Source: Jaapia argillacea MUCL 33604
Taxonomy: Eukaryota > Basidiomycota > Agaricomycetes > Jaapiales > Jaapiaceae
Assembly (NCBI GenBank): GCA_000697665.1
Contig: KL197737.1
Location: forward strand, 208,051 to 272,050
Direction of reading: 5' to 3'
DNA length: 64,000 bases
In this document: positions 3,001 through 27,489 of the stretch, one piece after another
Numbering within the stretch: the first letter of the stretch is position 1
Layout: every line of letters starts with the position of its first letter
Program-made: the position numbers and the translations under genes
Notes under the pieces: model-generated
Seen by the model: only the letters and a program-made list of their open reading frames with translations
The model's database searches: none
What the model was told of the DNA's origin: nothing

Positions 3001-3560
3001 GCGATGGATATGGCCAACATTTACGACCTCTCATATGAACAAGCTCAATTGCAATATCCTCCACCCTCTTGCATCCCAACTCTCCTCATCCTTGACACTA
3101 ATCACTCGGCAGCTCCTTCAATCACTGGTACCCCTCCTCCTACTCGAGCACCAACTCCACCCACTATGACTACATTCTCACTTCCTCCTGGCGTCATCTT
3201 ACCTCCTGGATTCACTATCCCCTCCGACGCTACAATCCACATCCCTCCCAAGGATCTCAATATGTATACCGTTGTTCTTTCAGCTCCGGCAGCTTGACTC
3301 AAGCATGTTTTAGGATTTGGAGGGAAATTCCATGAGAAGTGGATGGTAGGAGGGGCTGAATTGCAGGTTAGTCCCCTCCATGGAGGTCCATATCCCCTCT
3401 GGACTACAATGCCTGGCATCGGCACTCTTATGTGGATGGTGGATCATCTGGAGGCTCGAGCACCACCAGACCTCCATAGTTGACAGGCGAATCAGCCCGT
3501 ATGGAACCCAACCCAGACTCTCACCTTGCCTCCCACCACCAACGCCACCAACACCAAGGC
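1..3560 (+). mobile_element. Ty3-type gag/protease fossil (LTR retroelement kin)
   Basis: An old, broken retroelement copy on the plus strand. Seen in the sequence: a gag-like stretch at about 500-930 with the motif YNKYFWKGLP, close to a gag family common in mushroom genomes; a CCHC zinc knuckle at about 1,540-1,585 (CFACNEKGHMMNTC); a retropepsin-like segment at about 2,340-2,700; and a Pro/Thr-rich stretch at 3,004-3,297. No reverse transcriptase or integrase is visible here, so it is either a gag-protease-only lineage or the front part of an element cut by the large transposon that begins near 3.58 kb. There are many breaks, so it is old. No terminal repeats were found within the window. 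The family call rests on motif order. Confidence 0.65.
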
Positions 3561-3585
3561 ATCCCTGTAGCAACAATTAAACATC

Positions 3586-3800
3586 AGTGATAACTACAAT
3601 CAGCCACGTTACAATTTCTACAGCAGCTACTGTATGATTATTATCACTAGTACTATAATTCAATCACATTGCAATTTGAGTGAGCCAATCTCGAGCAGGG
3701 TAAAACCAACCACCACAAAAAAACATACCACAAACCGGCCGCTGCAAAAAACATATGGAGAAACAAACATACGGAATGGCAAAAAAAACATATTCCTAGC
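3586..3800 (+). repeat. Left inverted terminal repeat of the KDZ element
   Basis: Read on the plus strand this runs from CAGTGATAACTACAATCAGC through ACGTTACAATTT to the near-palindrome ACAGCAGCTACTGT (3,620-3,633). It then passes a CATTGCAATTT block and an A-rich part with repeated AAACATA words. The same order of blocks occurs on the minus strand at the right end (27,478 downward). It lies downstream of the transposase stop codon at 4,057, as expected for an element end. Confidence 0.6.
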
Positions 3801-4056
3801 CTCAAAACGGTGATATTGGGGGTGAGGGGGCAGGAGTAGGGGGATGAAAATACATTTCAGAGGGAGCTTGAGACAGAAACCCAGCACCAAAAACCAGAAA
3901 TACGGCACTGGAAATGGGGATATTGAGCGGCTGAATATGACAATTTTCGATGAATGAAAGCCGGGACAAGCAATTGAAACAGATGTGAAGTTCTAAAACA
4001 AACACTTAGTTATTATTCATGAGCAGGCTAAAAAGATAGGACTCACCCACAGAAGG

Positions 4057-7000
4057 TTAGTTATCATCAACATACAGGCCGTTGTCGTCATCAAAATCAT
4101 CGCCCAACAAACTCACATCAGTGTTGGGGCCCAGATCCACCTCATCGAGCAAGTCAGACGAAGATAGAGTAGTGGTCGCAGTGTTTGCCCATTCTCGTGC
4201 TGTCTTCCACACAATCTCCCAGGCAAGGGCACGGTGATGTTCAAAGAAGGCCTGTTTGGAGGTGGAGGCACATAACCCTTCATAAAGTTCGAGTGAGAGA
4301 TCTTGATGGCGAGCTTTCTGACCCATCCTCCAGTGAGCCTTCCAGTTGCAGTACTTGATAGACTGATGCATCTCCTCATCAAGGAGTATGACCTCTTTGT
4401 GCCACCAAGCTGCCCTGGCCTTCGCCTTCACCCACTCAATTTGGAGGACTACAGGATCCAACAGATGAGTGATAGTATACAAGAAGATGAAAATGACTTA
4501 CCCTTGCACATCTTTGGATCATTTGACGATTCATCGGCTTCCACCTGTGTCCATAACCACGAGAGCTCACAACAACCTTCACCAACTTCCACAGTTCCTC
4601 CTCCTGTCCTATGTGCCTTCACTCGACCTCCAGTCCCAGCACCCGTCTGAACGCCTGTCCAGTCTGCCAACCTCTCAGCATCCAAAACCTCTGTATCCTG
4701 AATATCCTTCTCATTTGGCCCATGAACATCTCCAGGGTTGAGCACCTGCAAAGTGTTCTCCCATGACCCATGACCCTTGAGACTAAGATAGGATCCATGA
4801 GTATGGTTGTATTGGCGAACGGCAGAATCCACTTTTCCTTCAACTCGTCGAAGAATTGTTTGAAACCGGGTATTCGCAACCTGACTGGTAACATTCTTGA
4901 TCTTGAACCAATTTGTGTGTGTTTGCATGTGAAGGTGATGGCGGAGGGTGCAGAGGGCATCGGTGGCCTCAGCGAATTGAAGCCGTGCCTCCAGGTCAAC
5001 AAGGCCAGGGAGACAAACCTGACCTCTAAGATTTGATGAGAGTTTGAAGGGGAGATATAACTTGAGATTCTCGGGAAGGGAGAGTTGTTCGGATTGTCCA
5101 CTGGAATGAACATTGCGGATGGCGACAATGCTTGGCATGTGGATTGCTTGCAGCCCATGAAACCGCTCGATCTTCTGTTTGAGAATGTTTTGACGGTCTC
5201 GGAGCTCAGCTGCTTGTAGCGTGGTAGGGTTGCTGGTCGTTTGCACCTCCTTTTGGAGAATGCATCTGTTATCAAGGTTAGATACAGAAATCCAAACAAA
5301 AGGGGATGCTACATGCTGAGACTTCTTGATATCCATACCCAGTATGAGCAGTGCCAAAGGAGTTGACAACCTGTCCACAGGTATATCCTGCTCAGCATTG
5401 TCACCACCATTACCCTCCTCAGCCATCAACATCTTCCGAACTTCATTGAGAGTCATAGCTAAAGTTGAAGGTTTAGATTGGGAGGGAGCAAACAAAGAGG
5501 TGGCGTACATTCTTCCGACGACTCATAAGGACACGGCTTGTTGTCAGCCTCCCAAGCTGTTAACATCTTGTCCCAGGCTGCGACTTCCAACAGACTTTCT
5601 CTTTGGAGATTCTCATTGAAGGCTCTGAACGCGGCGCCATGCTGGATGGCCTCCCCGATGGCTTCCAGTAGGAGGCGATGAAATAGTTTAGCTAGATAGA
5701 TGGTCAGCGTTAAGAGAAATAAGTATGAGGCAAAACATACCAAGGCCGATTGTCTTCATCCAATTCATAAATCCACAGAAATCATTCACTGTGTCACGAC
5801 ACGCCCCCAGACCCATCTCCTTTGTACTGGGACCTGCACCATTCAACCACGCCCATAGTCTCTCCAGCCCTTTGCCATTAGATCGTCCGACGCCATGCTT
5901 GAAATTGAAAGAAAAGGGCGCTTGACACTTCTTGCCATGCCCAGCAAGGTGGAACTTGTTGACAAGGAAAGTGATGTTGTCATGGGGGATGGAAAGCTGC
6001 ATGTCCTCTGGAAGGCCAAGCATTCATGTCCAGAGGTTTATGTGCCAAACACAGACAATGTTGTAGGAATCCACCAGGCCGAGGTTGGGATGAACACCTC
6101 TCAGACTCGAGAAGAAAACATAATCAACATTGCAATATCTAAGAGCTAGCAGGTTAGATGTTGATGAACAGCCGAATATGGAGGAGAAAGGCTAACCGTT
6201 CACCAAGCTGCAAGTCACCAAACCCATTTGCCTGCCAGCAATCATGATGACAACTCACGCCGACTACACCAGTTGCACGAAGGCCCTGTGTTCGTTTGGT
6301 GGTTGCATTCAGAAGTGCGGCAAATCCAGTGCATCCCTTAACCTGGAATCAATAGACCAACAGTTAACCCATGATTAAGAGGCTGGCACAAAATCACTCA
6401 CGTCTTCCTCGTCCACATGGTTGAGGATATGGGTCGAGTAGCCTACGTTATCGACGTAGTAGGCCAGACTGTTGCTCAGCGTTGGGTCTTTGTCTTCACT
6501 TGACCGAAGACAGTTTTTCAAATGGAAATTACAGTCTTTCTGAATAAATAGTCGATACTTCCACCTATGATAAGTCAGTGGTGAGAGTCAGTGGGTAAGA
6601 AATAAGAACGTACGAAGTCTCCTTAGATACCGTGTCCCAACCAGGAGGAAGATTGATATCTGGGTGGGGACATGCTCGACATGGGGTTGAAAGACCACCC
6701 ATTGGCATACCCACAAGGCCCTCTGGATCGTGACCTCTCCCCACTCTTTTCGCCATTCGAACGTGCCGAAACTCCCTCACCATCAGAAAGAACGACAGCA
6801 TCCGATCCTGCAACAAATGTCAGAAACAAATCTTGAGGGACAGACAGTGTGGTTGGACTCACTGGCAACTTGAGTAAACCTGACCCATTGGTTTGTAGCT
6901 CTAGCGTGCAGTAGAAGTCGTATGCTGAAAGCTTGCCCTGCAAGTTGAGCGTCTGGAAGTGCCTGAGCACCTGGATTGTCGCACAAGTTTGAGGTTCAAG

Positions 7001-7857
7001 TGGGGTAGTGGGCCACCAACCTGCCCTGAGAAGTTAAATATGTTTGAGGGCTGGTTTCCTGCCGCAACTGCAGAACCAAACAGTGACTTGATGGATGCCA
7101 TTTGTATCAATGACGACAAAATCCTTGTGGCCAACATGAGTGTAACCGCATCGTTGACCTGGCGGGTGCCCAAGCTGAATGACCTGACCGAGGTTTTGAA
7201 GTGTTTCCCTTTGAAAGAAGTAGCCATTCCATCTCTTGAAAATGGTCAGCTTAGAGTTCGTATGAAAGTCATGAAACAACAAACCTGGATTTGATGAAGC
7301 GGAGCGCGACGATGGTAGTCCACAATACACTGGGCGCACTGCATATCACCGCCAAAACAATCCTGACAGCAGAAAAGTGCTTCGCCATGGCACTCAGGGC
7401 ACTTTGACTCCCTTGCCCTCCCTCAACCCTCCAAGTACAACATCTCATCAAGATACTCATCTCAAAGGGGAATCCACGTCTTCAGGGGCTCATCCTGAAT
7501 AAAGAGATACATATGCAGAAGATAAGCAAATATCACCCAAAGAAAGTGGCCATGAAAACGTACCAAGTTTGCATACCGTTTTGCTTGTCTTGGAGGTACC
7601 TCAACATTCTCATCTTCATCGGCAAGAGGGGTAGAATTGTCTATAATCACATCATCATTTGGCACAGTGGGGGTGTCCGCGGCTTGGGGAAGTATGGGTG
7701 CAGTTGGGACTGACAGAGTCGATGTGGCTTCAATAAGACAGCAGGAGTCATCAGATAGAACATATGACTGGGAGATGACATGCCCATCATCAGGAGCAAT
7801 GAGAGGGTGATGAGTAGGCCCCTTCTTCTTCGGTTTCCTCGTTGCAGTCGCGACCAT
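4057..7857 (-). pseudogene. KDZ (Kyakuja-Dileera-Zisupton) transposase with CxC2 cysteine cluster, decayed
   Basis: Transposase of a cut-and-paste DNA transposon, multi-exon with short introns. In order on the minus strand: a basic N-terminus (KKKG); a CxC2-like cluster at about 7,390-7,300 (KCPEC, CCQDC, CAQC, then DYHRRAPLH); the WNGYFFQRETLQNLG and TVWFCSC blocks; QKDCNFHLKN; YNIVCVWHINLW; then NKFHLAGHGKKCQAPFSFN and GLERLWAWLNG near 5,950-5,830; and a C-terminal EWVKAKARAAWWHKEV helix before the stop at 4,057. The family usually has YDI.C where this copy has YNIVC, so a likely catalytic Asp is lost. At least three in-frame TGA codons interrupt it, two flanking DEYLDEMLYLEG and one after HINLWT, places where I recall Arg in relatives. 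The start at 7,857 (MVATATRKPKKKG) is a choice; an upstream Met lies at 7,899. Confidence 0.85.
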
Positions 7858-7992
7858 CCAGGTGTGAGGTGAGGTGAATGGGAAGGAGGGAAAATTCAAA
7901 AATATGTGACATTTCCATCACGTGAGATATCACATGACCATTATAAGTTACTGTTCTGAGCACTGTTCTAAAAGACTATGGGCTGTGCATAA

Positions 7993-9517
7993 CTACAACA
8001 GTTTGTACTCATCCACGGTCGAAAACAGATTCAGCGATTTCGCCCAACAGGTGTCCCTCTCCATTTCCATCCTAGCAAACAGCTCTGGATCCTCTTCCAG
8101 AAGTCGTTGAGTTGACCAGAAGCCATAATCAAACCAACGGAAGATTGCACCTGATGCGTATTGAGTGAAAGAGTACCGATGCTCGTGGGGTTGTATGGTG
8201 GTATTCCTGTGGTGAAGGGTACTTGAGGGAAGGATGATGGTTGAACCAGGAGGGAATTCAATGATGAGTTTCAAATCCCAGAGAACCATATGACTGCCCT
8301 TCATTGGATCATAGCTCCCAAGCACTGTGATTGGGCAGGCACCGGCTGTATAGTTTCTGGTGTCAACATGCTCCTTTGTCACAGAATGAGGACCCAGGTT
8401 AAAGGTCACTGTGGGCCAAACACTTGATTTGAAAGGTCTCCTGAGGTTCGGGTGGTGGTTGAACACTGCGTTCACGGCAGTTTGGTATCAGTCATAAAGA
8501 CGGGGAGCATAAAGGGACAAAAGACCTGAAACAGTATCAATAACTACATGGTGGAAGACATAAAGTAAGCACTCACAATTATGATGGCCAGATACCCTTT
8601 GAAAACATTTCATTGACGCCAAGCAGTCAAAAGTCTTTGCACGATAAGCAGCGTTGATTAGGTTACCAGGAGTCTGAGTAATAAACCACTCAGCTGAAGA
8701 AGTCGGATCTGAAATGGCAACATACCAGTCGAATGAGAGGGTTGAACGGGCCTGCTCCATCGCTTCACTTGCTGCTCACGTTACCCCAGCATCCCAAGTA
8801 TCCTTCTCTGCACAACCAGGCAAATCGCACAGGGGCAGCCCAAGGATTACAAAGGCCCGAGAGCTACTGTCAACCACCACCCCCAGAGTTCTACATTTCT
8901 CAGATAGGCCGAAACACAGAAACAAGGTTTAATGCTTACTTTCCATCCCATGGCTGATACTGGAAGCCTCTGTCCAGTAGCTCATCCAGACTAAACAAAG
9001 ATCAACATAACTTTGAGCTCCACAGCCCCACATACCCCCCATTTGCTGGCTGAAGAGCATGCTGGAAGTCTACACTCATAAGGATGGCTGGCTTCCCATA
9101 CTTCTTTGTAGCTGATGAACGAAGCTTTGAGTGTGGGGGAAGGATGGCTGATGCAGCCTTGTGCATCGCTTTGAGTTCTCTCTTCTGTTTTCGATTTTGA
9201 GAAGAATTCCGTGTGACTTGACGCTTGTGTTGGGAGGTTAGGTTAAGGCGAGAGTTGGCAGGATTGGGGACAGGGGTAAGTGGAGGGATATCCAGCTGCA
9301 GATAAGGTTGAACCTGTGGGGGTAGCGAAGGGGAGCTTGGCGGAGAAGAGAGTGGGCTTGAACATGGCAATGAACTGAGGGAACTGAGCAGAGAAGAGTC
9401 AACCAAGCTTGCAGGTGCAAGAAGCGGTACAGCGTCACCGCCAACACCATCCTCAAGTGTGCCATCCTCAGGAGTGCCGTCTGTGAGAGCTCCTTCAGTA
9501 TCACCCTGTCCAGACAT
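7993..9517 (-). pseudogene. TET/JBP-type 2-oxoglutarate/Fe(II) dioxygenase, decayed
   Basis: Relatives oxidise 5-methylcytosine or thymine in DNA. Three exons fit with consistent phase: 9,517-8,940, 8,890-8,577 and 8,525-7,993 (475 codons). The N-terminal part is Ser/Pro-rich and then basic (KRELKAMHKAA), followed by SLDELLDRGFQYQPWDG and PGNLINAAYR. The core has the HxD iron ligands in KEHVDTRN, then GSYDPMKGSHMVLWDLKL, FPPGSTIILPSSTLHHRN, and the distal basic segment HRYSFTQY expected to hold the last His and the 2-oxoglutarate-binding Arg. Three in-frame TGA codons interrupt it (near 9,003, 8,774 and 8,491), with no frameshift needed. It lies about 135 bp upstream of the transposase on the same strand, matching the known KDZ-TET/JBP pairing. 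The active-site residues survive, so decay looks recent. Confidence 0.82.
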
Positions 9518-9792
9518 CTCTCAAAGAGCTGCTGCTGTGAATGAACCCTTGAGGAGAGGAGTGAGAGTGAACTGTGGTTGGGCAGCAATCACAAACGGTG
9601 AGAAGAGCCATCCAGAACGAGTCTAGTAAAGACCAGTTAAACATCTACAAGACTCAAAGGATGGGATGCTACAGACCTTTCTTGAATTCAGGGACATAAT
9701 GCAACCTGTGCAACATGGGTCAGCATAAGACCAAAACAGCAGCAACAATAAACAGATGGTTCCTCTGACCCAATGACTGCCAACACCACGCA

Positions 9793-9881
9793 GGTGATGC
9801 CTATGAAGACTTCTCACAGGCAGCATCAGGGAGTGGAGGGGGGGGAGGAAAGACAAATGACCACCGACGACACATAGGTGA
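9793..9881. repeat. 84-bp direct repeat interrupted by LTR element A
   Basis: The block GGTGATGCCTATGAAGACTT starts at 9,793. GGTGA starts again at 9,877, directly before LTR element A, and the second copy continues beyond the element at 20,769 as GGTGATGCCTATGATAACTT. The uninterrupted locus therefore held two copies with an 84-bp period. The stretch from 9,518 to 9,792 upstream of the TET/JBP gene shows no gene. Confidence 0.75.
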
Positions 9882-10414
9882 TGTAACGGGTATTTACTGG
9901 GGAATACTCTCCAGTATTGCCCTGGACTGAGTGTGGGAACTCGTGAGCGGAGTTTGAAATGACTTTGTGTATTCTCATAGCTTTCTCTTTTGAATACATC
10001 ATCTTCACTACCTATTCACGAATCAACCTCTTTATTGAGTGTGTCGATTGTGTGAACTAGGCGACTTATCTCACTTATAGCTGGTAGTTAGAACCACCGG
10101 CTCTACTCAGAACTCGACCTCTACAAGAGGGTCGAGTTACGAGACTTTATCTACTTCAAAATCAAGAGTGACCTTCAGTCACATTGTGGACTCCTCATCG
10201 ATGCAGGACGGCTGTGTAGACAGCCGTGCCAAGCTATTGAGTGGCTCAGGGAGCTACGAGAGTAGCACCTAAGGACGCAGTCTCCATGTATTTGATAGCG
10301 GGGCTCCCTGTGAGGGGTCTCACACCTCAGTACCGGCTCTGAGGCTCGCCAGCCCTCTGGACGACATCTGACTCCTAAGCCATTGTGACATGCAGGTCTA
10401 GCCTAGCCGTTACA
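9882..10414 (+). repeat. Left LTR of element A
   Basis: 533 bp, TGTAACGGG...GCCGTTACA, the same length as the right copy and about 96% identical. It ends directly before the AAGGTGGACACTGGG block that is also found on the minus strand near 29.2 kb. Confidence 0.93.
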
Positions 10415-12835
10415 AAGGTGGACACTGGGAGGAATCGTCGTTCAACCTGGCCGGCTCACGACAAGCTTAACAATTATTCAATTAGTACTTCAATACATCC
10501 TCATCCACCATTTTGCATAGCTTGCCCCTTCAGACACTTTCGCCTTCGTACTCAACAATTGTGTCCTTCCCAGCCTGTTACAGCTTCGTCGATCGTCCCC
10601 TTCATAGATTGTTCCTCGACTTCCTCGTCATCCACAGTCAAGTACTATCGAACCAAAGCCTCTCAATTCATATTTGCTTGTGTCATTTCACTTCCCTGGA
10701 CCCCTCAGAATCCAATCCAGACTGCCTTTGGATTGAACCTCGCATTCACAAACGAACAAGCAGCGAGACTTCTCTTGTGACTCTCTGTTGGAATTTGACA
10801 TCTCTGGTGATCACTCTGCACCTCTGTGCTACCCTCAAATATTGATCACAGCTCGCTCACAAATGATGACACATCCAATAGTTTTGTGCTACTGTGGTCG
10901 TATCACCCACCGTTCAATCGATGCTCATAGATTTCGTGAATGGCCACGTTCTGCAACTGTCTAATGTGACCTCGCAAGGGAGCAACTAACCATCGACTGC
11001 TCCTCATTCATCACTCAACCCATTTCTGGCCACCCGTCTGTTTATCCCATCACATTCACTTCCTCGTTGTCTCTTCCGTGGACCAGTGAATTAGCATTGC
11101 TAATACACCCTGTCGTAATTGTGAACGCTCGAGCTTGACAGTCGCCTTGCCTCGTTCCCCTTTGAATCCATCTCTCTGCTACGGCATGTCCACACCCTCA
11201 GGTGATTGAGTTCCTGTTCGCACACACTCTAGCCTCTTCCGCACTTCAAGTAAGGGTACTTGTCTGGTCGTCGCTCCTACGTCTGTAACATCCACAGACT
11301 CGCACTATCTGGGCCCTCGCTATTGGCGAATCTGGTCTCGCCGTCATCTTCTCGTGCATGCCTGGCTCAGGCGGACTTTCAAACTCCTGCGCTCCCATTT
11401 TGCGATCACGACATGTCAACCAGGCTCATCCACAGAATTGCCATTTGATTCATCGATCAAATATCTCACAAGTCTGTTGAAGTGGAATTTGCCTCCACAG
11501 GTGGCGCTATCACTTTTGCCCTCTATCCGGCCTCAACTCTTTGCTCTGACATCTCGCCTCTCAAATCCTCCCTTGTCTGGGCCACTGTTGCTCTCAGTTG
11601 AATTGTCTCTCTCTATTCGCCCACCCCCAGCTTGAATTTCGAGTAGTCGACATCTATTCCCTGATACCGGAATCGTCAACTGTCACTACACAATCGAGTA
11701 TTCGATTTGATTGATATCAACTTCTCGTCCTCGCATTCTGTTTACTGTTGCTGTATCGTGCACACAAGAGTCCAGTCAACTTGTGACATTCGTGTCCATC
11801 GGCGAATACCTCCTCCACTGAGCATTCGAATCTGCGGAAGTCTTGAACCTATATCATTACGGTCCAATCAACCTTCGAGCCTTTGGAATCAAATCATTCC
11901 CGTCGACCACTTCTCCTTGCAAAGACCCATAGTCTCATCCTGTTGCCTGCAATAACCCTTGCAACACTCTTCCTCACTCCCTCAACCACACCACATTCGC
12001 CTCGTGAACATTCACTTTCGACGAAATCTCTTTTCCTCCGCATTCGTGCTCCTTCATCCATGCCTATACGCTACCAGCCCCTCGGTGAGCATCTGTCGTT
12101 CATAGCATCTGCTGTCAGTCTATTGTATCTTCGCAGCACTTCCACTGGGTGTTGGTGTTTAGCTCGAGCTCCATATGTCAGGATTGCTCCAAGCCTCTGA
12201 ATCTCTCGTGCCTTGAATACCAACCACTAGCTGTTGGATCGGAACCCCAGTTACTCACACCTCTGCTATATTCAGCACTCATATTCCTTGCTGAACCTCT
12301 CCACCGTATGATCCAAGCCATCAACTTGCAGCTACGAGTGGCATCAAGGGTTTCTCATCAATGCAGGCCAGGCTACGATAGTAGCCAGACCCAACTAACT
12401 CAGTCCCTTCCTGGAGCTTCTTACAGGAAGCACAGGAGGGCACGTTCAGATGTGTGTACTGGCTGTGGGCGACTGCCGAGGTCACAACCCCAACAACAAG
12501 TTTGTGCCGTGAATGTTCACGTTCGGTTCACCTTTCTGGCTCTGCTACTTGTATAGTGTTGTGCAAGGCTGGGCTTTGAGCCCTGAGCCTGGCCTAACCA
12601 AGCCCTGTGGAGCCTGACCAAGCCCAGCCTCCATGAAGGCTTTAAGGGGCTGAGGGTTCAGGCTTGAGTTCCAGAGAGCCTGAGCCCTAGGCTTGAGCCT
12701 GGGCTATTTGATCATATGAGGAGGGGGAGGGGTGGGGAGGAGGGAGGAGGAAGGGGACAATGGGATGGTGGGATGGGGTGGGATGGGGTGGGATGGGGAT
12801 GGGGAGATGAAATGGGGATGAGGAGGTGGTATGAG

Positions 12836-12990
12836 GGTGGGGAGGTGGGATGAAGGTGGGGAGGTGAGATGAAGGTGGGAGGTGGGATGAAGGTGGGGAG
12901 GTGGGATGAAGGTGGGGAGGTGGGATCAGGGTGGGGAGGTGGGATCAGGGTGAGGCAGTGGGATCAGGGTGAGGGTGAGGGATGGGGATT
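12836..12990 (+). repeat. Purine-rich minisatellite
   Basis: About seven imperfect copies of a 19-20 bp unit, GGGATGAAGGTGGGGAGGT, drifting into GGGATCAGGGTGGGGAGGT. It belongs to the left arm of the hAT-like element. An open frame across it is a by-product of the repeat. Confidence 0.8.
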
Positions 12991-13252
12991 GGAATGGGGT
13001 GGGATAGGACAAGAGAGCAAGGGGAGAGGAGAGAGAGAGAGAGAGAAGGAAAGCTGGAAAGAAGGTGATGTGGTGGGAGTAGAACAGAGGGTAGTGAGAT
13101 AATGAAGGGGGGAAGAAGGAGAAAGTGGTATGTCTTGCCCTCCTTCTCTTTATGCCTTACAGTCCTTTTCATGACCCATCTCTGATTCTGTCCATTTCCC
13201 TTATAGATTTCTATTTTCCTTCAGTTATCTCACCCAACCCCTTCTCTCTTCT

Positions 13253-13781
13253 TGTTGTGAACACATTCGGACTTGTATATTTTCCTTTATATTGTTTGTA
13301 TTTTCATCGGACTTCATTCGTTTTCGTATCATTTCCCTTGTCTATGATACGTAGTATGATTCGTTCTTATCTTATCTTGGACTCTATTCTTAGCATCCAA
13401 TGACTCGTCTTGTACAGCCTCGTACAGCCTCGTCATTGTTCTGTTTCTCATTGTTCTTATTTCATTGTACTTTGTCATTGTCTCAGAACCTTAACTCGTT
13501 CGCCATTGTCTAAGTACATTGTCTCACTCGTTATTGTCTCTAGTACATTGTTTGACTCTTCATTGTTCCTGTAGTATATAAGGACGCCTAGCTACTTTGT
13601 ATTCAGTAGCTTGTCCACTTGAACAATACAGCGCTTTAGTTGTATCCTTCAACCGGTTCGCTCCTCCCTCGTCATCCTCTACTCTTCAACATCGTAGCCT
13701 GAGTACTAGTTAGCAAGAAGTATCCAAAAGACTTACAAGCCTTATTCACTACCTTACGCTAACGCTAAGGCGCTCCTAACA
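13253..13781 (+). repeat. Solo LTR related to chromovirus B
   Basis: 529 bp beginning TGTTGTGAACAC and ending CTCCTAACA, flanked by a perfect 5-bp duplication CTTCT (13,248-13,252 and 13,782-13,786). Its last 180 bp or so align closely with the LTRs at 47,478 and 55,954: CTTGTCCACTTGAACAATAC, a GTAGCCTGAGTACT block and CTAACGCTAAGGCGCTC are shared. The 5' half has diverged, so it is the same family but a different subfamily. The internal region is absent, as after recombination between two LTRs. Confidence 0.85.
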
Positions 13782-14578
13782 CTTCTCCCCTTTTCTCTAT
13801 CTCCTCCTCTCTCCTCCATCTCCTCTCCTCTTCCCTTGCTCTCCTGCCTCCCCCATCCCATCCTCATGGTCATCTCCATCCCCATCCCCATCCTATCCCT
13901 CTCCCTTCTCTCCATCTCCTCCCTTCTCCCTATCCCCTCATCATCATCCCTCTCCTCTCATCCTCTCACCTCTCCCACTTCAATCCCATTGTCATGTACA
14001 GTCTAGAACACCAATAAGTATAGGGTATTTTCCTTCATTACAGTGTCATTTGAATTTTATTTTCGCTTTTTTGTGAATATGGGCCTTCCAACACCCTCAG
14101 ACAGCCACAAACAAATTCAGAGTCTCCTAGTACTATATCTATTTATCTACATAATGGTCTAAAAAATACAACAATCTGGTGGAAACCCTTGGAGGTATAA
14201 AGCCAGGGCCCAAGCCCAAGCCTGACCCTCTTGAGCCCGAGCCCTGGCTGAGGGCTCAGGCTCATGATTTACCAAGCCTGAGCCCTCCAAAGCCAGGCCA
14301 AAGCCCAGGCTTTTGAGCCAAGCCCAGCCCTGCACAACACTATACTAGTATCATAGTGAAGCAATAAGCGATGGATTCATGTTCCATAGGCTTGCCATTC
14401 ATAGCGGTCTTGGAAACCCTGAAGGGTTATCGTGGATGGGTGAACGAGAATATTGAGATATTACAGTGGATAGAGAACTCACCAGAGTTGAAATGAAATT
14501 ATGCTTCTACTGGGGGGCGGAACTTTCATTCAGGTCATGCTGTCAGGACAGGGATACCCTCAGATGTCCATGAAGCAC

Positions 14579-17500: not shown

Positions 17501-19671
17501 GTCTACCTTCCTCTGTGCACCGCCTCCTTCCCCTCAAAATGACTGTCAATCTCAAGTTAGGCAGACCCCCACTTCGACCTAGGCAGTCGGATCTTGATGA
17601 TTGGGATAGTCGACCAGTTATACCAGTCGTAGAGTGCGAAGAAACCCAATCTGAGCTATGGCGTGGTTACTGGGAGGTGTGGGTTTCACAAGAAGTTTGG
17701 TCCTTCCATCCACTGGCCCCAGTAGCATATGGCAATACTGAGTTTACACCCACACATTTGAGTCACATTCTGGCACCGTTCAAGCTCTCGTCAGCGGTAT
17801 TGCCATCTACTGGATGTCATATATCCTTCCAACTGGTGCAGAGAACCAAGACCATCACTTGTACCTCTGAGGTTTCAGACGCTCTCTCCAAGCCTCTGAG
17901 CCTCACCACATATGTCTCAGAGGCCCAAGCACAACTTCAGCCGTCGTCGATGGCTCAGATGTCTGATGGACTCCCCAGTTCTTTATTGAACTTGGCACCT
18001 TCTATGTTAACCCATGCCCCGCCAAGTGCTTCCACTCTCTTTGTTCCAGCCTCGCAGGAGAGTCAATACGGCTCGTGGAGAGTCAATCCTCACAATCCAG
18101 CCTCCGAATCCAGCCTCAAATACCTGCAGTCCGTCGACAGAGAGCCTGCCAACCTCATTCCATCATGGATCTTGTCTATTCAAAGGATGCCATCACCGAG
18201 CATCAAACGAGAAGCTTTCTTTTGTGACCACAACACTGTCACGCAGACCTCTGGATATAGCAGAGACAAGCCACAATCCATGAATTCAACTCACGTCACA
18301 GAACGGTTTGGTTGTTCCGCGTGGAGCCGAGAACATTTCTCGCTGTGTGCGCCTGCCCACCTGAGCAATAACCATTTCAACAAGCTGGCAGTGCACCCTC
18401 TATCTGGGGGGACGATCAAACTGGCGAACTTGTGTCTGGAAGATGGCTACCCAGATGTTGATACTCTGGGATCTTTGCAAATAGGAGTCCAGTTGCAAAC
18501 TCTGGTCCATCGCTGGTTCCACGGCCATTCGGAAAGCTCGTTGTCACCTTGCTATGCGCTTACACTCCCGGTAATCGTAATCCATACTGAACTCCTTCTC
18601 ACGGACACCGACAATTCTCGTCTCCACCAGCACTCATGTGCCCAAGTCAATTTCGAAATGGACCTGCTTTCCGAACCACGCGTAGCGAGGCTCAGATCAA
18701 TTCTTTGCGGGACCCTGCCTGACATGGTATTGAAGGACATAAGTAAACATGTCTCCAAATGTTTTGACCTTCGAGGATGGGCAGGTACCACTGGGGCTAT
18801 TGTCTCCCGTCCACTTTTGACTAGTCATCTGGTTATTCTATGGAATTTTGGCCAGGTACAGACCCCGCTCTCAGGAGCCATTGCAATGGTGGCACGGGAG
18901 GACACACTTTGTGTGGGGGTTTCATTTGTCTCGGGAGCTCTTAACACAGCACCGAGACACTGGCTTCAGATTGGACTCACAGTGCCTGTAAGACTACAAT
19001 CAGTTGTTGACTCCACCCCTCAATGCGTGAGCAAGGATTACGGGGCCACCATAGCAACTTCTTCCGTGTTTTACGGGACCCTCAGAATGTCAGGATCTTG
19101 GCAAATCTTTAGTTCTCCACGACATGTGTCAGCTGCCACACCCATCTGTTTCTCAGTGGACTGTTATTGTCAAACTGGTACCCACTACAGATTACAGGAT
19201 CCTCACCTGCCGCCTCTTGTTGTCACTAGTTTTCGACGCCCTCACGCATTGCAAGCACCCAGCCTCCAAACTTCATTGGATCTCGTCAGCTCATCTCCCT
19301 CTGGATGCATCAGGACAGGATCTTCAAGTTCGCAATACACTGATGGACCTGCCTTCACCCTTGCCCTTACAAATACAACCTGCATTTGGGGAGAAATGCC
19401 CCCAAGAAGTTGTACCAGGAATTCTAGGACTCCAGATGAGGCCATACAAGCAAGAATTTGCTTAAATGAGTCCCCATCTCTCGATAAGAATACTCCCCAA
19501 GTCCCATTCTACTCCCCTCGCTTTGCTGCTCTGTATATCAGTTTCAGTACTCTCTGGAACTGCTGCTTCAGCTCAGGCTTTGCCGCAATCATCTCCCCGT
19601 GTGCTTTATGGCTTGTCTTTTGGACCCAAGGGGCCTACCTTGTCAAGTTGGCATGGTTATCAGATCTTTGA
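14579..19671 (+). other. Long, mostly open frame of unknown function inside LTR element A
   Basis: About 1,600 codons on the plus strand, open for most of their length, make up the 3' half of the element. The front part (14.6-15.1 kb) is charged, with YLAKVDPNYWHCLDL, FHGKIWDCYH and a Glu/Arg-rich helix-like stretch, and could be a divergent gag. The remainder is Ser/Pro/Thr/Leu-rich without a recognisable domain. A motif of about 35 residues occurs twice, near 17.01-17.11 kb (SGAVKVALRDTLCMGTSYI) and 18.87-18.97 kb (SGAIAMVAREDTLCVGVSF). It does not resemble pol. I do not know what it encodes. Confidence 0.5.
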
Positions 19672-20235
19672 AATCCAAAACCTGGCCTGCTCCTTCACGC
19701 CGCCTCCTTGTGTTGTAACTATCCCTACAAAAATGTGAACGGGCACATTGCAAACGGCAACTACACACTTCACTCCCATAATGTGAGGTGCTTCATGCAC
19801 TGTTGAACACAAAATTCTTCGAACTTCGCCAACCACAGGGGTTGATCTTGGGCGTGGGAACCTCTACAAAGCATCCATCATTTGTAGTCTAGGACAGATT
19901 AACCACCACACTACGGAGTCATTCCTCTAGCTTGCACTACAAAAGTGTAGATTGCTGTGCTCAACCACACTTTGCACATACAAATTCACTTGCATCTCTC
20001 CTGGATATTGCTTCACTGGTCACCTCAACTGCACATATCTATGCTCGTATGTGTCATTTTCCACTGTGACTTGGATCTTACAACAGGATTTCTCATTCTA
20101 ATTCGCCTCCATCTTTCAACTTGGATTATATTATACAACTTCACTATGGATATGAATGGGATCTGGATTAGTTGAGATGGGAAATTGAGAGGATGGGGGG
20201 CAGATTCAGTGCAGATGCTGGAGAGTGGGGGGCTA

Positions 20236-20768
20236 TGTAACGGGTATTTACTGGGGAATACTCTCCAGTATTGCCCTGGACTGAGTGTGGGAACTCATGA
20301 GCGGAGTTTGAAATGACTTTGTGTATTCTCATAGCTTTCTCTTTTGAATACATCATCTTCACTGCCTATTCACGAATCAACCTCTTTATTGAGTGTGTTG
20401 ATTGCGTGAACTAGGCGACTTATCTCACTTATAGCTGGTAGTTAGAACCACCAGCTCTACTCGGAACTCGACCTCTACAAGAGGGTCGAGTTACGAGACT
20501 TTATCTACTTCAAAATCAAGAGTGACCTTCAGTCGCATTGTGGACTCCTCGTCGACGCAGGACGGCTGTGTAAACAGCCGTGCCAAGCTATTGAGTGTCT
20601 CAGGGAGCTATGAGAGTAGCACCTGAGGACGCAGTCTCTGCGTATTTGATAGCGGGGCTCCCTGTGAGGGGTCTCACACCTCAGTACCAGCTCTGAGGCT
20701 CGCCAGCCCTCTGGACAACATCTGACTCCTAAGCCATTGTGACGTGCAGGTCTAGCCTAGCCATTACA
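20236..20768 (+). repeat. Right LTR of element A
   Basis: 533 bp, TGTAACGGG...GCCATTACA, preceded by a purine tract and followed by the target duplication GGTGA. About 19 of some 20 differences from the left LTR are transitions. Confidence 0.93.
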
Positions 20769-21520
20769 GGTGATGCCTATGATAACTTCTCACAAGTGCC
20801 ATCGGGGAGTATAGAGAAATGCACAATTCAAAGGAGAGGCACTCACATTGAGTTTGAAGGGTTTGATTCAGTATGTGAGGAGACGAGTATGAAAGATTAT
20901 GATATTCAAGACCGGTTAAACAAGCAGAGGATAATGAGGGTAGTAGACTAGGAAAGAATGATAGAGGTAAGATAAAGAGCAATGTGACGGATGAAGAATC
21001 AGGTTGAGCAAAGCACTACAGATCTAGCTGACACGCCATGGCGGGTAGCTGAGTCCAACTCCAAGCTCTGATGAAATCCTGACGAGCCTCGGTTTCAGGC
21101 GCTCACTGGTAGGTCTCAGATGGGTTTAAGGACAATATTACATGGAATGTTAACTTGGTTGAACACAGTAGTTAGAATCCAATGGCATTCCTTGTTAGCC
21201 ATAGGTGGATTCGGAGGATAAACAATTGATCAATAGCTACGAGATACAGTACATACCGGTGTGCATCCCCACCAAAGGCTCAATATCAATCCAAACTAAG
21301 ATACTTAATGTCCGAAACATTGACATCTCATTTCTCAAGCAGGCGAAGTGGGCTTAATACTTATGTAGTCATTTCTCAACGTTACTGGTACTCTAGATAA
21401 GTTTTCAAAGTTTCTGTGAGAAGACATCAATCAAATCAAGCAATGGGGATGCTGATGGAAAAGATAGCGAGGTTGACATATATACAAAGGGAACCCCACC
21501 CTACGTGTTCCTCACACGCA
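20769..21520. other. Non-coding interior of the KDZ element
   Basis: Resumes the KDZ element after LTR element A. It opens with the second copy of the 84-bp repeat. The remainder holds no frame or RNA gene that I can recognise. Confidence 0.5.
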
Positions 21521-23085
21521 CCTGACAGTCACAGAGTCCTCTTCGATACCCATTGATTGCGGCACCCTCTGACTTGTAAACCTCCCATTCCGTCCCCTGC
21601 ATCCTTGCTCCCTGCAATTCGACGTCTGCCCTAGAGTCACCACCTTGTTGTTAGGCATCAAAGAATGAAGAAAGACTCACCCCATACCTCGTTTGGAACA
21701 CCCCTGTCACATTATTGCCAATGAAAATGCAATACCAACATCGAGGGTTTTCAAGCAGCTGAGACGTGGGGTGCAGGACAGGCTTCCACACGTTGACGCC
21801 ACCTCTCCTTCAAACCAGATCGAATTCATCCTCTGCAGCTCGCCTTGTTGAAAACTTCTGGTGGGTAACCATTGCAACTTTTTTCACCCGAGCTCGGACC
21901 TCCAACCTAGCCTTCTTGTCAGCAAGACACTCTCAAGCAATCTGTGAATATCCCAACCTGAGTTCCCCTGCAGATAACATACCACTTGTTCAACTGAGCG
22001 CCGACATCCAGGAACACTGTCAGTCAGGGCCATCAGGAGGCTGAGGATTTGGTAGGGAGGTTATTTGGGGGAGCCACGACCACAGCACCTCCAATAGAAA
22101 CAGCATTTTGAACAGTCTCCACCGCCTCCCACTCTGTGGCAAACCCATTTTGGACTGCTCCCCGAACTCCTTGGGTGTGCAGAGCTGTTACACCCCTTAT
22201 CGCCCACATCAGGTGGCGGCGACAGAAGACGACATGACAACGACTCACCAAGACTTAGTTGCCCCAACCTGGCTGCCTCAAAATATCCCATATGAGCCTG
22301 GTGCCCTTGGAGGGCTTGCTTGGATTGACCGATAAAGTGGATGGGGGTGTCCCTCCACTGCGCACTGTACTTTGTTCCTACATCGACCAGCTCAGTCAAG
22401 CAACAGAAGAGTGGTGGTAGCGACTCTCGTACCACTGGTTTGTCACACCGGTTTCATGCCCACTACCAATGACATAGGTCTTTCCGTTTGATCCCTGGTG
22501 ACCTCCAGGTTGGTGGAAGGCAGGGGTGTAGGGTGATGGGATGGTAGAGGCGGTAGCTGGTGCTGATGTAGGAGCAGCGTGGGGTGGAGGAGGGTTCATC
22601 TCATTTGTGGGGGCTGCAATTGGATGTCTGGGCTGGACAGGTCAAGCAGAGTGGTAGGCTGAGTGAAGAACTAGTCCAGGAGGAGTTGGTACTGTCGAAG
22701 AGAATACGGTGACTGTATTGTGAGGGTTGGGCGCAGTGTTGGGCCAGCGTTTCTTTCCTTTTCGACAGGGAGTAGTTGGTTGGGTTGCAATTGGGTTAGA
22801 TGGTGGATCCAAAGGGTTGAGTATTGATGTAGAGTGAGGGAGGGAAGCAGGTGTAGAAGTTGGACAGCGAGAAATGCTGGGAGATAATGTTTGCCTTGGG
22901 CCTTCCTTGGAGCCATCCATCACAACATCTTCAAGCTTCAAGTCACCTATGGCCAAGAGATGCTCAATATCCCTCAGATTGGAGTCTTCTGCAGCCATGG
23001 ATAGATGTCCTAGGGTGAAGGAAGTGTATGGTTCCTGCTCTGGTCTCTCAGGCTCTTGGTTAATGGGCAGTCTCTTGGCAGGCAA
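21520..23085 (-). pseudogene. Protein with RNase H1 N-terminal/viroplasmin-like motifs, decayed cargo gene
   Basis: Starts at 23,085 (MPAKRLPINQEPE). The N-terminal motif FTLGHLSMAAED...IEHLLAIGDLKLEDV, then a Pro/Ser/Thr linker, then KTYVIGSGHETGVTNQWYE near 22,450 and a second similar motif WYCIFIGNNVTGVFQT near 21,740, match a multi-copy Agaricomycete family. Members of that family pair this N-terminus with two copies of a small fold resembling the RNase H1 N-terminal hybrid-binding (caulimovirus viroplasmin) domain. Its cellular role is unknown. The frame is interrupted by TGA codons near 22,640 and 22,390, and later parts lie in other frames and short introns, so it is not functional as it stands. 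It is divergent from the next gene across 145 bp. Confidence 0.55.
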
Positions 23086-23230
23086 TCAGTCTCTCTTCAA
23101 GTCCCTGACGCCACGTCGGCACCACCGCTCTAGTATAAAACCCCCATCCCCATGGTTTGAATTTCAGTTTCCCTCGTCCTGCTCAACCACCCTCATCACG
23201 TCCACTGGTGGTCATAGACTTGTCGCTGCC
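23086..23230. promoter_or_regulatory. Shared divergent promoter region with TATA box
   Basis: 145 bp between two ATG codons facing apart. TATAAAA at 23,134-23,140 on the plus strand suits the rightward gene, about 95 bp before its ATG. The leftward gene has no clear TATA in this space. Confidence 0.5.
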
Positions 23231-26200
23231 ATGCCTGCTCATGCCAAAACTGTCCCTCCCAAGGGCAGTGATGCTGAACAACCCTCAAAGCCTAAACGCG
23301 GCGCACCCTCCAAGGTCGTCGGTATCAAGCATGCATTCTTGTTGGCAAGGAACGACGAGTGGTTGGGTACTTGCAACAAAACAGGAACTGTCAAGATTGA
23401 AGTGTTCCTCAACAACATCACCAAGCTTTGGTTCCTCAAGTACGGGGACTTGCCCTTCGAGAAGGACCTTGACATCGACAAACCCGATCCCGATCTCTCT
23501 CTTCTTGACGCGCCTCAAGAACTCACAGATGCTGAATGCCATCGCTTCAAGGAGCATTGTAAGATAAGCAACCTGTCCTCAGCCTACTCTCAGTGAGCTA
23601 ATGGGTCGTCATCAGAGAATCAGTCAATGGTTTCGCAACCACAACAACAAACTCTTGAAGAACAACACTAATGAGGTGATTCTCAACCGCATCAATCACA
23701 CTCTTGGCGCTGAGTCTGTCGACGCTCCTCGCAAGAGACAAGCAGCCCAAATATTCTTGCGGGAGTACCAGACCAAAGTCTACGCCATCTTCACTGGTCG
23801 TTGGGAAGAAGAGTTGGCGAACGCCAAAGCTGCTTCCAAGAAGCCCCTGAAGAAAGTCACCATTCTCATGAAGGTGACTCAGGAGTTGTTAAACAAGCAA
23901 TCACCATCGTTTTGTGCAGAGATTGATCAGATGGTCCTCAACGACTATCTTGCTCACGTCGCAAAGTGGGAGAGTAAGGGAAAGGGTAGCTATGCTCGCC
24001 AGGGTGATTCCCCCAAGGCATATGACAGGTACATGTTCTCAATGTGTTGCTGTATGGACTCTATCTCACATTGCCTTAGTGCCCTGTTTAGGAGTGGTGA
24101 TTACATGCAACCAATGATCAGGTGTGCAGGGACCAATATGGGGATGAACATTATCATGATGTATGTTGGTCCTGTTGGCCGACGTCAGGGTAAAGTTGAA
24201 GTTCGGACGTAAGTCTTCCTCATCCTTCACATTGGCTTTCACTAATCTTTATGGTGTCAGGTTATATCATGGCAAGACCAGAGGTCTCCTGGGTCAAACA
24301 TGGCAGCAACTTGATCCTACAGGGTTCGATGCAGCCACCGCCTCAGCAGCAAGGTGGGGTAGGGTGTGTTTTTGTAAGTTGACACCGTTAATGCCTCTAT
24401 TGTCATTTGAGTTGACCACTTCCCTCAGCGGATGAAGAATGTCAGGTGTGTGTCCTCCCTGTTGAAGACGGTGTCAATACATCGCTGTCATCAAGCAACA
24501 CATCGTTGCCCAGCGTCCAGCAACCAGTCGACGTTGTTTCAGTGACAAATGGCTCACTGTCAGATGTGGCACCTCTCCAGGCTCCAAGCCACCCATCAAC
24601 GTTGACGCCATCTCCACAAGCTCCAACTCCAGGTAGTCCAAATCCTGTTCCAACGTTGGTGACTGGACAGAGTGTCCCGTCTCCTGCCTCATCCAGCTCT
24701 ACCACCCTCTCATCCAACTTTTCCACCTACTCATCCAGCACCGGCTCTCCCACCACCTTGTTCAGTGCTGGCTCTTCCACTGTCTCATCCAGCACCAACT
24801 CACCCACCACCCCAGCTGCTTTCTTCGTTGCCACGTCCGACATTGGCACTGACTTTGGCGTGGACATTGACTTCGACGGTACTCTGGATGATCTTTTTGA
24901 GCTTGCTGATGACTTTGAGGATGGCTTGGGGGATGGACTGGGGGCCTCCATGGGAGATCATGATGATCCAAGTGCCATCATCATCGACGATACACAGGCC
25001 GCCAGTATGCTTCTTCAGTCTACCTCATCCGGGATGGTGTCGTCCCCTCCTGTCACAGTCTCACCAGCTGGATCGCCTCTTGCTTCGGCCACACCTTTGA
25101 CTGCCAGCAGCGCCAAGCTCCCAGTTGCTGAACCTGACCTGATGACAATGATGTCAGCAGTTGATGGGTTCAGCTTTGGTTCATTGTTGAGCTTACCTGT
25201 AGTTCCCAAACCTACTACTGCGTTTGAGACTCCAGTTCGACGACCTCTGCTCACTCAAGTCCAAAACACACCTCTGTTCCTTCCACCACCAAGCTCCAGT
25301 CCTGCTCCACAACCGCCTTCATCCCAGAGCCATCATCAGTTTTTGTTGCAACTCAAGAAGGTCTCAAAGACGCACATGCCAAGTACCAGTCAGACAATCA
25401 ATCACGCATCCAATACCACATCGTCTCCTCCCCCTGCATCCAATCCTACATCCACTCCACCCACCACACACGACCTCGCATCCACTCCACCCACCACACC
25501 CAACCTTGCATCCACTCCACCCACCACACCTGACCTCGCATCCTCTCCCATCGCTCGTTTGCCTCCCAGTGAGTCAACCCCACCCCCACTGTTGGGTGAA
25601 GTCGCCCCTGGTGTTGGTGCTAGCAACACGCCCACTTCCAGTATGTCTGGGTCGACCACTGATGTTGCTGTCAATTTGTCTGATATGGATTTGTGGCCCA
25701 AGTAGTTGCAAGAGGGTTATCCGGCTATGATGGGGTTACATCTTGGTGATCAGTGGCAGTCTTGTGTCGCTCTCTTTGTGGAATTTGAAAGGTGTTTCAA
25801 TTTCTCGGTATGTTCTCTGGTCCGTATTCATCTGTCTTTCATAAGCTTAACATGCTCGCAACAGAATCCTAAAGGAGTTTCTCTCAAGTCCACCAGTATT
25901 CCTCTCGTCATTCAGCAGTGGAAGAAGAATTACTAATCATGGAGCTTGAACAAGCCACCGTTTACCAACATTACATGGAAGGTGTTCAACAACCATCTTG
26001 CTTCATGGAGCAAGTGGTGGTGGATGTTACAACCTTCTGAATGAAGCTCTCCAACTGGCAGCCTTCTTTGTCGATCTGGACTCAATTGGTCTTTGTTGAG
26101 GAAGTGTGGAGGCAATGGTTTTATCTCAGTCATGGTTTCGATTGTGTGGTGGGGTTATGCCATTCAGGGAGGCAGTGTTGATGTTGAAGACAGTGATCTC

Positions 26201-26536
26201 ATGAGTGTGATTGATGATGTCCAGTGGGTGTTGAGATCTATGCTTGAGTCAAATACAAGGTGAGTGGTATATTTTCAGATCCGAGTCATTCCCATGCTCA
26301 TTGGTAACAACTTGTGTAGTCGTCTTGTGGATGACAACAAGGTGGCTCCTTCTCCTGTGGTCTCCAAGGGGAATCGTAAACGTCGTTCGACATCTGAGGC
26401 TGGAGGAGAAGGTGTGGCTCCAAAGAAGAAGAGGTTTGTGCGGCTATCCTCTTCAAGTTGGATGGGATTACTGATGACCATTTCTTCAGAACTTAGTGGT
26501 TGTTGTAGGTTCACAACCTCAAAGCACCATTGAAGT
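23231..26536 (+). pseudogene. Large Ser/Pro-rich protein of an expanded Agaricomycete family, unknown function, decayed
   Basis: Start ATG at 23,231 (MPAHAKTVPPKG). Exons include 23,231 to about 23,558, about 23,583-24,208, 24,261-24,373 and 24,429-25,705; the last three join in phase. Conserved parts are KHAFLLARNDEWL, ISQWFRNHNNK, an RGTN-like block CAGTNMGMNIIMMYVGPVG, and LYHGKTRGLLGQTWQQLDPTGF. A Ser/Pro/Thr-rich stretch of more than 350 residues follows, with a short acidic part. Similarity to the family continues past the stop at 25,705 (LGDQWQSCVALFVEFER, SWSKWWWMLQP, NGFISVMVSIVWWGYA) to a basic tail KGNRKRR...PKKKR that looks like a nuclear signal. The gene is therefore interrupted by at least two stops, and the first exon junction does not stay in frame with the obvious splice sites. 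The function of the family is unknown to me. Confidence 0.6.
25449..25540 (+). repeat. 30-bp in-frame coding repeat
   Basis: Three copies with an exact 30-bp period encode STPPTTHDLA, STPPTTPNLA and STPPTTPDLA in the Ser/Pro-rich part of the large cargo gene. The sequence keeps the frame, as expected of a disordered linker that grows by slippage. Confidence 0.85.
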
Positions 26537-26539
26537 TGC

Positions 26540-27060
26540 CGACACAACTCGTCCTCTCTCCCCACCTTGAAGACACCAAACTCTCGTATATATATGCTCA
26601 TGGTTCAATTCATCATCTTCATTACTCCTCCACGTCCTGGAACTGCCACCTTGTCCTTCCTCTAATTCCCGTTCCTGTTTATTGTTATCTACTCTTCATT
26701 ATTTGATTGCTTGCACGTCCATGTCCTTTCTCGCCACTGTTATTGTTGCCCCTTGTTGTTGCTTGTCTTGGAGTTTCTTCCATCCCACTTTTGTGTTGCC
26801 TCATCCATTGCTGCTCTCTTTGTTTGCTTGGTATCTTGCTTATCGTGGTTGCCCTTGTCATTTTGGCTGGTTTCTTTCTTTCAATTGCCCTCCCCTTTCT
26901 CTGCGTTTGGCTCCTCATTCATTTTGACCTCTTCCACCTAATAGACTATTGTCCTTCAGCATCTATGATCTCTCTCATGTTGTAGTCAATCATCTATGTC
27001 AGGCTTTTACCTCAGTCCCCCCTCTGGGATGAAGATGGAACCGAGTGTACCCAAGATCAT
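26540..27060. other. Non-coding interval before the right terminal repeat
   Basis: Pyrimidine-rich plus strand with several overlapping short frames and no recognised product. It is probably the 3' flank of the large cargo gene inside the KDZ element. Confidence 0.4.
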
Positions 27061-27179
27061 GAAGGTGAGCACTTTTCACCCCTATTTGTTTTTTTGTTGT
27101 GTCTGTTTTGTTTCCACCCCATGTATTTTGTTCTGCCCAATGTAACCCTAACGGTGTGGTTTTTCCAACCATCTTTTTT

Positions 27180-27478
27180 GTTTTTCCACTGCATATGTTT
27201 TTTTCGGTCCAATATGTTTTTTTCCGCCCGGTTTGTTTTCTCCATATCTGGATATGTTTTTCTCTGCACGGTTTGTTTTCTCCATGTCTGGATATGTGTT
27301 TTCGTGGCTGGATATGTTTTTCCGAGTCATGTTTTTTGGTGAGGTTTGAGATCCTGGCTTTTGAGTCTGGCAGGTGACATTGTAATGCCATTGAATTGCA
27401 ATGTAGGTGGCCAGTAGCCTACAGTAGCTACTGTTGGAATTGTAATGTGATGGGCTGTAATGGTCATGTAACATTATA
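27180..27478 (-). repeat. Right inverted terminal repeat of the KDZ element
   Basis: Read on the minus strand from 27,478: CATGACCATTACAGCCCATC, ACATTACAATTCC, then the perfect 14-bp palindrome ACAGTAGCTACTGT (27,421-27,434), a CATTGCAATTC block and an A-rich part with repeated AACATATCC and GGAGAAAACAAACC words. The block order is the same as at 3,586-3,800 in inverse orientation. Within the terminal 65 bp identity is roughly 70% by eye. Confidence 0.6.
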
Positions 27479-27489
27479 ATCAAGGTACA

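Follow-up and report, generated by a model that had tools for sequence, protein, structure and literature searches.

DNA transposons of the KDZ class that carry a TET/JBP gene are already known. The TET-bearing Kyakuja (KDZ) elements of the mushroom Laccaria make 7-bp duplications, and two of them, Kyakuja-1_LB and Kyakuja-2_LB, have CA..TG ends and no inverted repeats (Kojima 2025, PMC12730594). According to the main text of that paper, no protein beyond TET is encoded by these transposons for further modification, and neither 'viroplasmin' nor 'other ORF' occurs in that main text. KDZ1-KDZ3 of Cryptococcus neoformans measure about 9-11 kb and have inverted repeats of 139-241 bp and duplications of 4-8 bp (PMC12810828). 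In Pleurotus ostreatus, a long copy of helpo1.3 (strain PC15, scaffold 1, 3742549-3754728) holds an extra 10.7 kb with the genes capD, capE and capF inside a Helitron; capD matches a herpesvirus UL36-type domain, capE is a viroplasmin (PF01693), capF is a nuclease of the RNase H fold and a putative transposase, and inverted repeats flank capD and capF. Its authors regard the genes as captured by the Helitron and report that copies of them were not seen beyond Helitrons (PMC4289320). Here we analysed a 64-kb stretch of the Jaapia argillacea MUCL 33604 genome (hereafter the window; C29:208051-272050, where C numbers denote contigs), in which a first-pass annotation had proposed a KDZ transposon with a TET/JBP gene and two further gene families, and searched the whole assembly (95 contigs, 43.7 Mb) for related copies.

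The element extends from 3556 to 27499 of the window and comprises 13,052 bp once a nested long terminal repeat (LTR) retrotransposon (9882-20768) is subtracted. From left to right it contains genes for a KDZ transposase, a dioxygenase and a viroplasmin-like protein, all on the minus strand, and a large gene on the plus strand (Table 1). The best explanation, which we hold as a whole to be likely, is a DNA transposon of the KDZ class, 13 kb long, whose imperfect inverted ends of about 130 bp enclose four conserved genes. Both the observation and this main inference are supported within this genome at the sequence level by the four-gene unit, the ends, 7-bp target duplications, copies with internal deletions and a signal of coding constraint in all four genes when diverged copies are compared. 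New is the four-gene unit; among the matches listed by open-access literature searches on viroplasmin in connection with transposons, KDZ or TET, and on KDZ, Kyakuja or TET, no title or abstract described such a module.

Table 1. Features of the element and its borders, in window positions.
Feature	Position	Strand	Remarks
7-bp target-duplication half CAACACC	3549..3555	+	partner at right end of C36 copy
Left end, imperfect inverted terminal repeat	3556..3695	+	AAGGCATCCCTGTAG in window, GAGGCGTCCCTGTAG in C24, C30, C36
KDZ transposase gene	4057..7917	-	several exons; PF18758, PF18803; limits predicted from open frames
TET/JBP-like 2-oxoglutarate Fe(II) dioxygenase gene	7993..9520	-	limits predicted from open frames
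LTR retrotransposon	9882..20768	+	nested in the element, not part of it; LTRs 9882-10414 and 20236-20768, 96% identical
Viroplasmin-like gene (RNase H1 N-terminal domain)	21501..23001	-	PF01693; predicted limits; related stretches in C30, C23, C24, C28
Large gene	23231..26260	+	N-terminal core and C-terminal domain conserved, middle rich in Ser/Pro; predicted limits
Right end, imperfect inverted terminal repeat	27360..27499	-	starts CACCAGTCCCTGTAC
7-bp target-duplication half GCAGGTC	27500..27506	+	partner at left end of C36 copy

As in Kyakuja, a KDZ transposase and a dioxygenase, here putatively of the TET/JBP type, are found in one element, with 7-bp target duplications (CCCTTCG at a copy on C30, and two crosswise between the window and a copy on C36). 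Unlike Kyakuja, the left end is GA (AA in the window), the right end is CA, and there are imperfect repeats of about 130 bp (PMC12730594). With KDZ1-KDZ3 of Cryptococcus (about 9-11 kb) the element shares inverted repeats and short duplications; these have a CxC1 cluster whereas the present transposase has CxC2, and the text of that report, as far as it was available, does not name a dioxygenase, a viroplasmin or the large gene (PMC12810828).

The ends were positioned by comparison with other copies. They lie slightly outside the bounds 3580-27485 proposed before, although the two-ended element itself stands. Searched against the genome, the 301 bp at the left matched two further places, one on C24 and one on C36, and reading of the C24, C36 and C30 copies gave the shared outer sequences listed in Table 1, from which the window departs by two mismatches at the left. 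The inverted repeats are imperfect in both the window and the C30 copy. The terminal similarity described earlier was borne out: when the region of about 2.5-29.5 kb was compared with itself by BLAST, 3730-3788 matched 27177-27236 in inverted orientation (79%, E 2.8e-5), and alignment of the outer 145 bp of the two window ends scored 36, above all 500 single-base shuffles (best 22). For the ends of the C30 copy the score was 42, with 18.5 as the best of 500 shuffles. We looked for a closer partner of the terminal repeats in the 64-kb window and found none: besides the two ends there was no match to either end pattern with up to two mismatches, and matches with three were at chance level. Genome-wide, with one mismatch, the left pattern gave 21 matches versus 16 for the reversed control and is thus partly noise, while the right pattern was less noisy (15 versus 3). 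Two copies of different divergence, C23:451323 and C36:350123, both without transposase and dioxygenase, cease to resemble the window at 3671 and 3678, about 115-122 bp in from the left edge. This looks as though an end needs the outer 120 bp; on C23, the breakpoint is only the edge of a 76% alignment.

Evidence for a single mobile unit comes from a diverged copy of 12,744 bp on C30 (190608-203351): its four genes agree with those of the window in order and orientation, both ends are present, and the flanks form an exact 7-bp duplication. This is the co-occurrence of the four families between shared ends that the first-pass annotation had predicted for other loci, found here within the same genome. 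In translated comparison with the window, the C30 transposase reached about 50-70% identity over its best stretches, the dioxygenase 50%, and the viroplasmin-like and large proteins 30-50%. A second copy (C24:129834-168957) is bounded by both ends, 39 kb apart, and retains each of the four genes at least in part. Its transposase and dioxygenase exons show 88% protein identity, the two right-hand genes are partly present, and about 28 kb of inserted DNA separates two pieces that adjoin each other in the window. Other copies are less complete. The C36 copy has both ends and internal deletions, which leave no transposase, very little of the dioxygenase and a minor part of the viroplasmin gene; on C23 a left end is accompanied by stretches of the viroplasmin and large genes, and the two left-hand genes are absent; C28 holds the right end and stretches of both right-hand genes; and at C1:352210 a right end is accompanied by the C-terminal domain of the large gene, 0.9 kb inside and 38% identical. 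If a KDZ/dioxygenase transposon on the left had merely come to lie beside unrelated multicopy host genes in a repeat-rich region, right-hand copies without left-hand genes, as in the stretches read on C23, C28 and C36, and window flanks that do not match each other would be expected. Such a chance neighbourhood is nevertheless highly improbable in this genome, given that the whole order recurs on C30 between both ends and with an exact duplication, that C36 joins the two halves without the LTR retrotransposon at about 97% identity, and that on C23 the left end stands beside both right-hand genes.

Two short units (C3:1584127-1585680 and C1:466384-469156) also have both element ends, with too little room for four genes. 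Their flanks match at 6 of 7 bases on C3 and do not match on C1; both units are probable non-autonomous derivatives.

To the target duplications we applied a pairwise comparison of 14 left with 13 right flanks (182 pairs). Fourteen of 20 left flanks were used, those on C4, C8, C20 and C44 and both on C14 being dropped for an inner sequence unlike the element, with C54 outside the set; on the right, 12 of 15 were used (C17:204546, C32 and C39 dropped) plus the C28 right end. Exact 7-mer matches occurred in three pairs, where 0.011 were expected: C30 with itself and two crosswise pairs between the window and C36. Six pairs matched at 6 or more of 7 bases (0.24 expected). The 6-of-7 pairs of C24 with C28 and of C29:171789 with C14:886863 were taken as chance, and the C3 pair, whose two flanks border a single unit of 1.55 kb, as probable. 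The eighth base at the C30 duplication differs or belongs to the end, so that the duplication is 7 bp long and not 8 bp as in Zisupton.

The window flanks (CAACACC left, GCAGGTC right) are unlike each other, and the C36 copy (330234-350123) has them the other way round, with GCAGGTC on its left and CAACACC on its right. A collagen-like Gly-Pro coding stretch adjoins the right end of the window copy; another, running into further coding sequence, adjoins the left end of the C36 copy, on the opposite side of the joint from the window's. We take the two stretches to be halves of one split gag or gag-like gene, with frames one base apart; a Pfam scan of the window-side stretch gave no match. Most simply, the pattern is read as recombination between two inserted copies, which thereby exchanged their ends. 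A chimeric assembly of two similar copies, which would be compatible with a four-gene transposon, is a possibility to which we give less credence than even odds: the window copy and the C36 copy share 94-97% identity along stretches of up to 2.7 kb, and swapping the flanking pieces gives complete duplications, but long reads usually resolve a divergence of 3-6%.

The subtraction of the LTR retrotransposon proved correct. Its LTRs match over 534 aligned bp at 96.3% (BLAST of the region against itself), the LTR unit is of the TG..CA form, and the insertion is bordered by a 5-bp duplication, GGTGA, at 9877-9881 and 20769-20773. The C36 copy preserves the empty site, where window position ~9881 joins 20769 directly, reading ATAGGTGATGCC, with halves about 97% identical. 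Inside the LTR element two plus-strand open frames abut, 14497-16002 (501 codons) and 16003-19671 (1222 codons); Pfam scans of both found no match at E 0.1, and there was no further open frame of more than 155 codons within the element. It is probably a non-autonomous element with a giant unknown frame.

The transposase combines the two hallmarks of KDZ transposons, the KDZ catalytic domain (PF18758; E 9e-22 and 1.6e-8 in two exon pieces) and an N-terminal CxC zinc cluster, here CxC2 (PF18803; E 5.7e-16 and 2.8e-17 in two exon pieces). The window copy has one in-frame TGA in the catalytic stretch, which is open in C24 and C30. Related transposases are encoded on C34 (61%) and at C1:3246050 (59%), and the other genes were not seen in the stretches read there; on C34 (215550-223877 read) only a left end and a truncated transposase were present.

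For the dioxygenase, an alignment of five family members showed that the window protein keeps HxD (H-V-D), the distal His and the Arg (His40, Asp42, His93 and Arg104), a motif that is not specific to TET/JBP. The Tet_JBP model (PF12851) matched three of the five members, with a best E of 0.01, and a longer piece from C50 with E 0.0047, all below the cut-off; the generic 2OG-FeII_Oxy_3 model came next (E 0.02-0.03). The earlier assignment as a TET/JBP oxygenase holds as far as this weak profile match in relatives goes, and does not extend to a match of the window protein itself. Among described types, the first His of the AG type is followed by Gly/Ser at +5 and by Asp at +11, and the PE type has HxE (PMC12730594). 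The present dioxygenase differs from both. By position count, made without an alignment to CcTET, all five members have Asn and Cys at +5 and +11 from the first metal-binding His; four of the five have HxD, and the C30 member has HxN. The enzyme is TET/JBP-like and may belong to another branch. Relatives were not found in the viral contigs scanned. A single-sequence fold prediction of the window protein reached a mean predicted local distance difference test score (pLDDT) of 41.6, and its Foldseek matches were discarded as meaningless. A second dioxygenase clade exists at C50:84402, C23:499754, C56:13525, C80:54430 and C17:157427, with 76-87% identity to the C50 member; those on C23 and C80 lie about 5-8 kb from other KDZ genes, and the right-hand families were not found beside members of this clade.

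The viroplasmin-like gene was also confirmed: PF01693, named Ribonuclease H1 N-terminal domain in Pfam, matched two window exon pieces joined with X above its cut-off (26.9 bits versus 21, E 5.7e-6). No Pfam domain was found in the pieces of the large gene that were scanned. Its C-terminal domain in the window contains two in-frame stops, of which that at 26042 is common to the window and C36, the other being outside the C36 bases compared. Genome searches found the large-gene core at 6 places and its C-terminal domain in 9 matches at 8 loci. As had been expected from the first-pass annotation, the right-hand genes reside mostly in copies with element ends. At seven of the nine large-gene loci (on C29, C36, C24, C30 and C23, two on C28 and two on C1) one or both element ends stand where they are expected, and five of the six viroplasmin loci (C29, C24, C23, C28, C30 and C65) are in copies with an end; the locus counts are lower bounds, since the searches score best candidates only.

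We then compared codons between copies, exon piece by exon piece and without gaps, in the coding frame and the two other frames, to obtain ratios of non-synonymous to synonymous substitution rates (dN/dS); all of them involve the window sequence, which makes them non-independent, and no correction was applied for CpG decay. Between the window and C24, dN/dS was 0.08-0.46 for seven transposase pieces, 0.23 for the dioxygenase, 0.34-0.65 for the viroplasmin gene and 0.16-0.71 for large-gene pieces, the lowest and highest of the latter coming from short or doubtful alignments. Against the more distant C23 and C28 the viroplasmin gene gave 0.07-0.42 and the large-gene core and C-terminal pieces 0.05-0.26, with 0.51 for the Ser/Pro-rich middle versus C28; against C30, synonymous sites were mostly saturated. 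Of the 42 comparisons over all four genes that yielded a ratio, the coding frame had a lower dN/dS than either other frame in 36 and a value below 0.5 in 34; other-frame values were at least 0.6 in 105 of 117 cases and at least 1 in 74. That selection keeps all four genes suggests that the extra genes help the transposon and are not random baggage. Alternatively, the right-hand genes, or all three genes besides the transposase, might be passive hitch-hikers, caught once and amplified without function for the element. Copies with one or more genes deleted (C36, C24, C23) would fit this, as would the shared stop at 26042, which looks as if a broken copy had moved. We regard this alternative as unlikely, because the low ratios of both right-hand genes versus C23 and C28, outside the middle of the large gene, were measured at a synonymous divergence of about 0.5-0.8, where the other frames mostly gave at least 0.6, and because both proteins are still recognisable in C30 at 30-50% identity.

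The copies show CpG decay. CpG observed/expected was 0.45-0.46 in the element halves and 0.46-0.47 in its near flanks; the LTR unit had 0.51, the stretch at 40-64 kb 0.64, the C30 copy 0.60 and C24 0.36. TpG/CpA was 1.35-1.38 in the element versus 1.18-1.24 in the rest of the window. Between the window and C36 we counted 155 transitions and 8 transversions, with 92 transitions at CpG; between the window and C24, 465, 83 and 179, respectively; and between the two LTRs, 19, 1 and 14. An excess of CpG transitions is the pattern expected from deaminated 5-methylcytosine, and these counts fit an element in a methylated neighbourhood.

Several observations weigh against a four-gene transposon of the TET/JBP kind. 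C30 is the one place where a matching duplication accompanies both ends and the full set of four genes; the C24 flanks do not match each other, the right end on C23 was not found as far as 462700, and the left end on C28 was not found back to 389700. Two large-gene loci (C1:465803 and C28:423415) are not tied to element ends, and no end was found in the 3.3 kb examined around the C65 viroplasmin locus. The KDZ domain gives 71 exon-level matches in the genome, far above the right-hand families, and most KDZ genes are not shown to carry the module. The C30 dioxygenase has H-V-N in place of H-V-D, and C24 and one further member, on C23, lack the Arg; Pfam scanning of the window dioxygenase gave no Tet_JBP match, the family has none above the cut-off, and sequence and profile searches of the PDB returned no TET and one unrelated match (E 0.95). 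The large gene is less constrained versus the close C36 copy (0.31-0.58, with one exon at 2.77 and one without synonymous change), and 17 of 59 codon comparisons gave no ratio, mostly through saturation. Finally, CpG depletion is similar in the near flanks and the element, so that the element appears neither visibly protected nor specially hit, and the sequences give no sign that the dioxygenase protects the present copies.

Elsewhere in the window, tandem repeats of about 203 bp occur at 37099-37910 and 56442-57488, with pieces near 47.4 kb (about 81-90% alike), and a 149-bp tandem repeat of about 2 copies at 29996-30316. An open frame in the left flank (1624-2271) has a sub-threshold DUF4100 match (E 1.5e-4).

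Set side by side by description, the cap genes of helpo1.3 resemble the large gene, the viroplasmin-like gene and the transposase found here. The Pleurotus set differs in having been read as a Helitron capture and in that no dioxygenase is named in the parts of the report available to us (PMC4289320). This resemblance suggests that the 10.7-kb stretch may be a nested element of the present four-gene KDZ kind.

In the four-gene transposon that we propose, the transposase would move the element by cut-and-paste, and copies without it would have moved in trans. The dioxygenase would oxidise methylcytosine on the element and thereby counter host silencing, the RNase-H1-N-like protein would bind RNA/DNA hybrids or DNA, and the large protein would act on chromatin, expression or targeting of the element; these three accessory roles are putative. 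The window copy would be an old, mutated one, later split by the LTR retrotransposon, which exchanged ends with the C36 copy unless the assembly is chimeric. More tentatively, the four genes might form a self-contained counter-silencing module, in which methylated or R-loop-bearing element DNA is acted on jointly by a hybrid-binding protein, a large partner and a dioxygenase from a TET/JBP branch not yet described in transposons; the multicopy partner families of mushrooms, including genes published as Helitron captures, might then be remains of such transposons.

KDZ elements with a TET/JBP gene have been known as a transposase plus a demethylase. Two further gene families are now placed in such an element, with a signal of constraint across copies. 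This offers a testable origin for multicopy mushroom gene families of unknown function, and candidate partners in the transposon's fight against DNA methylation.

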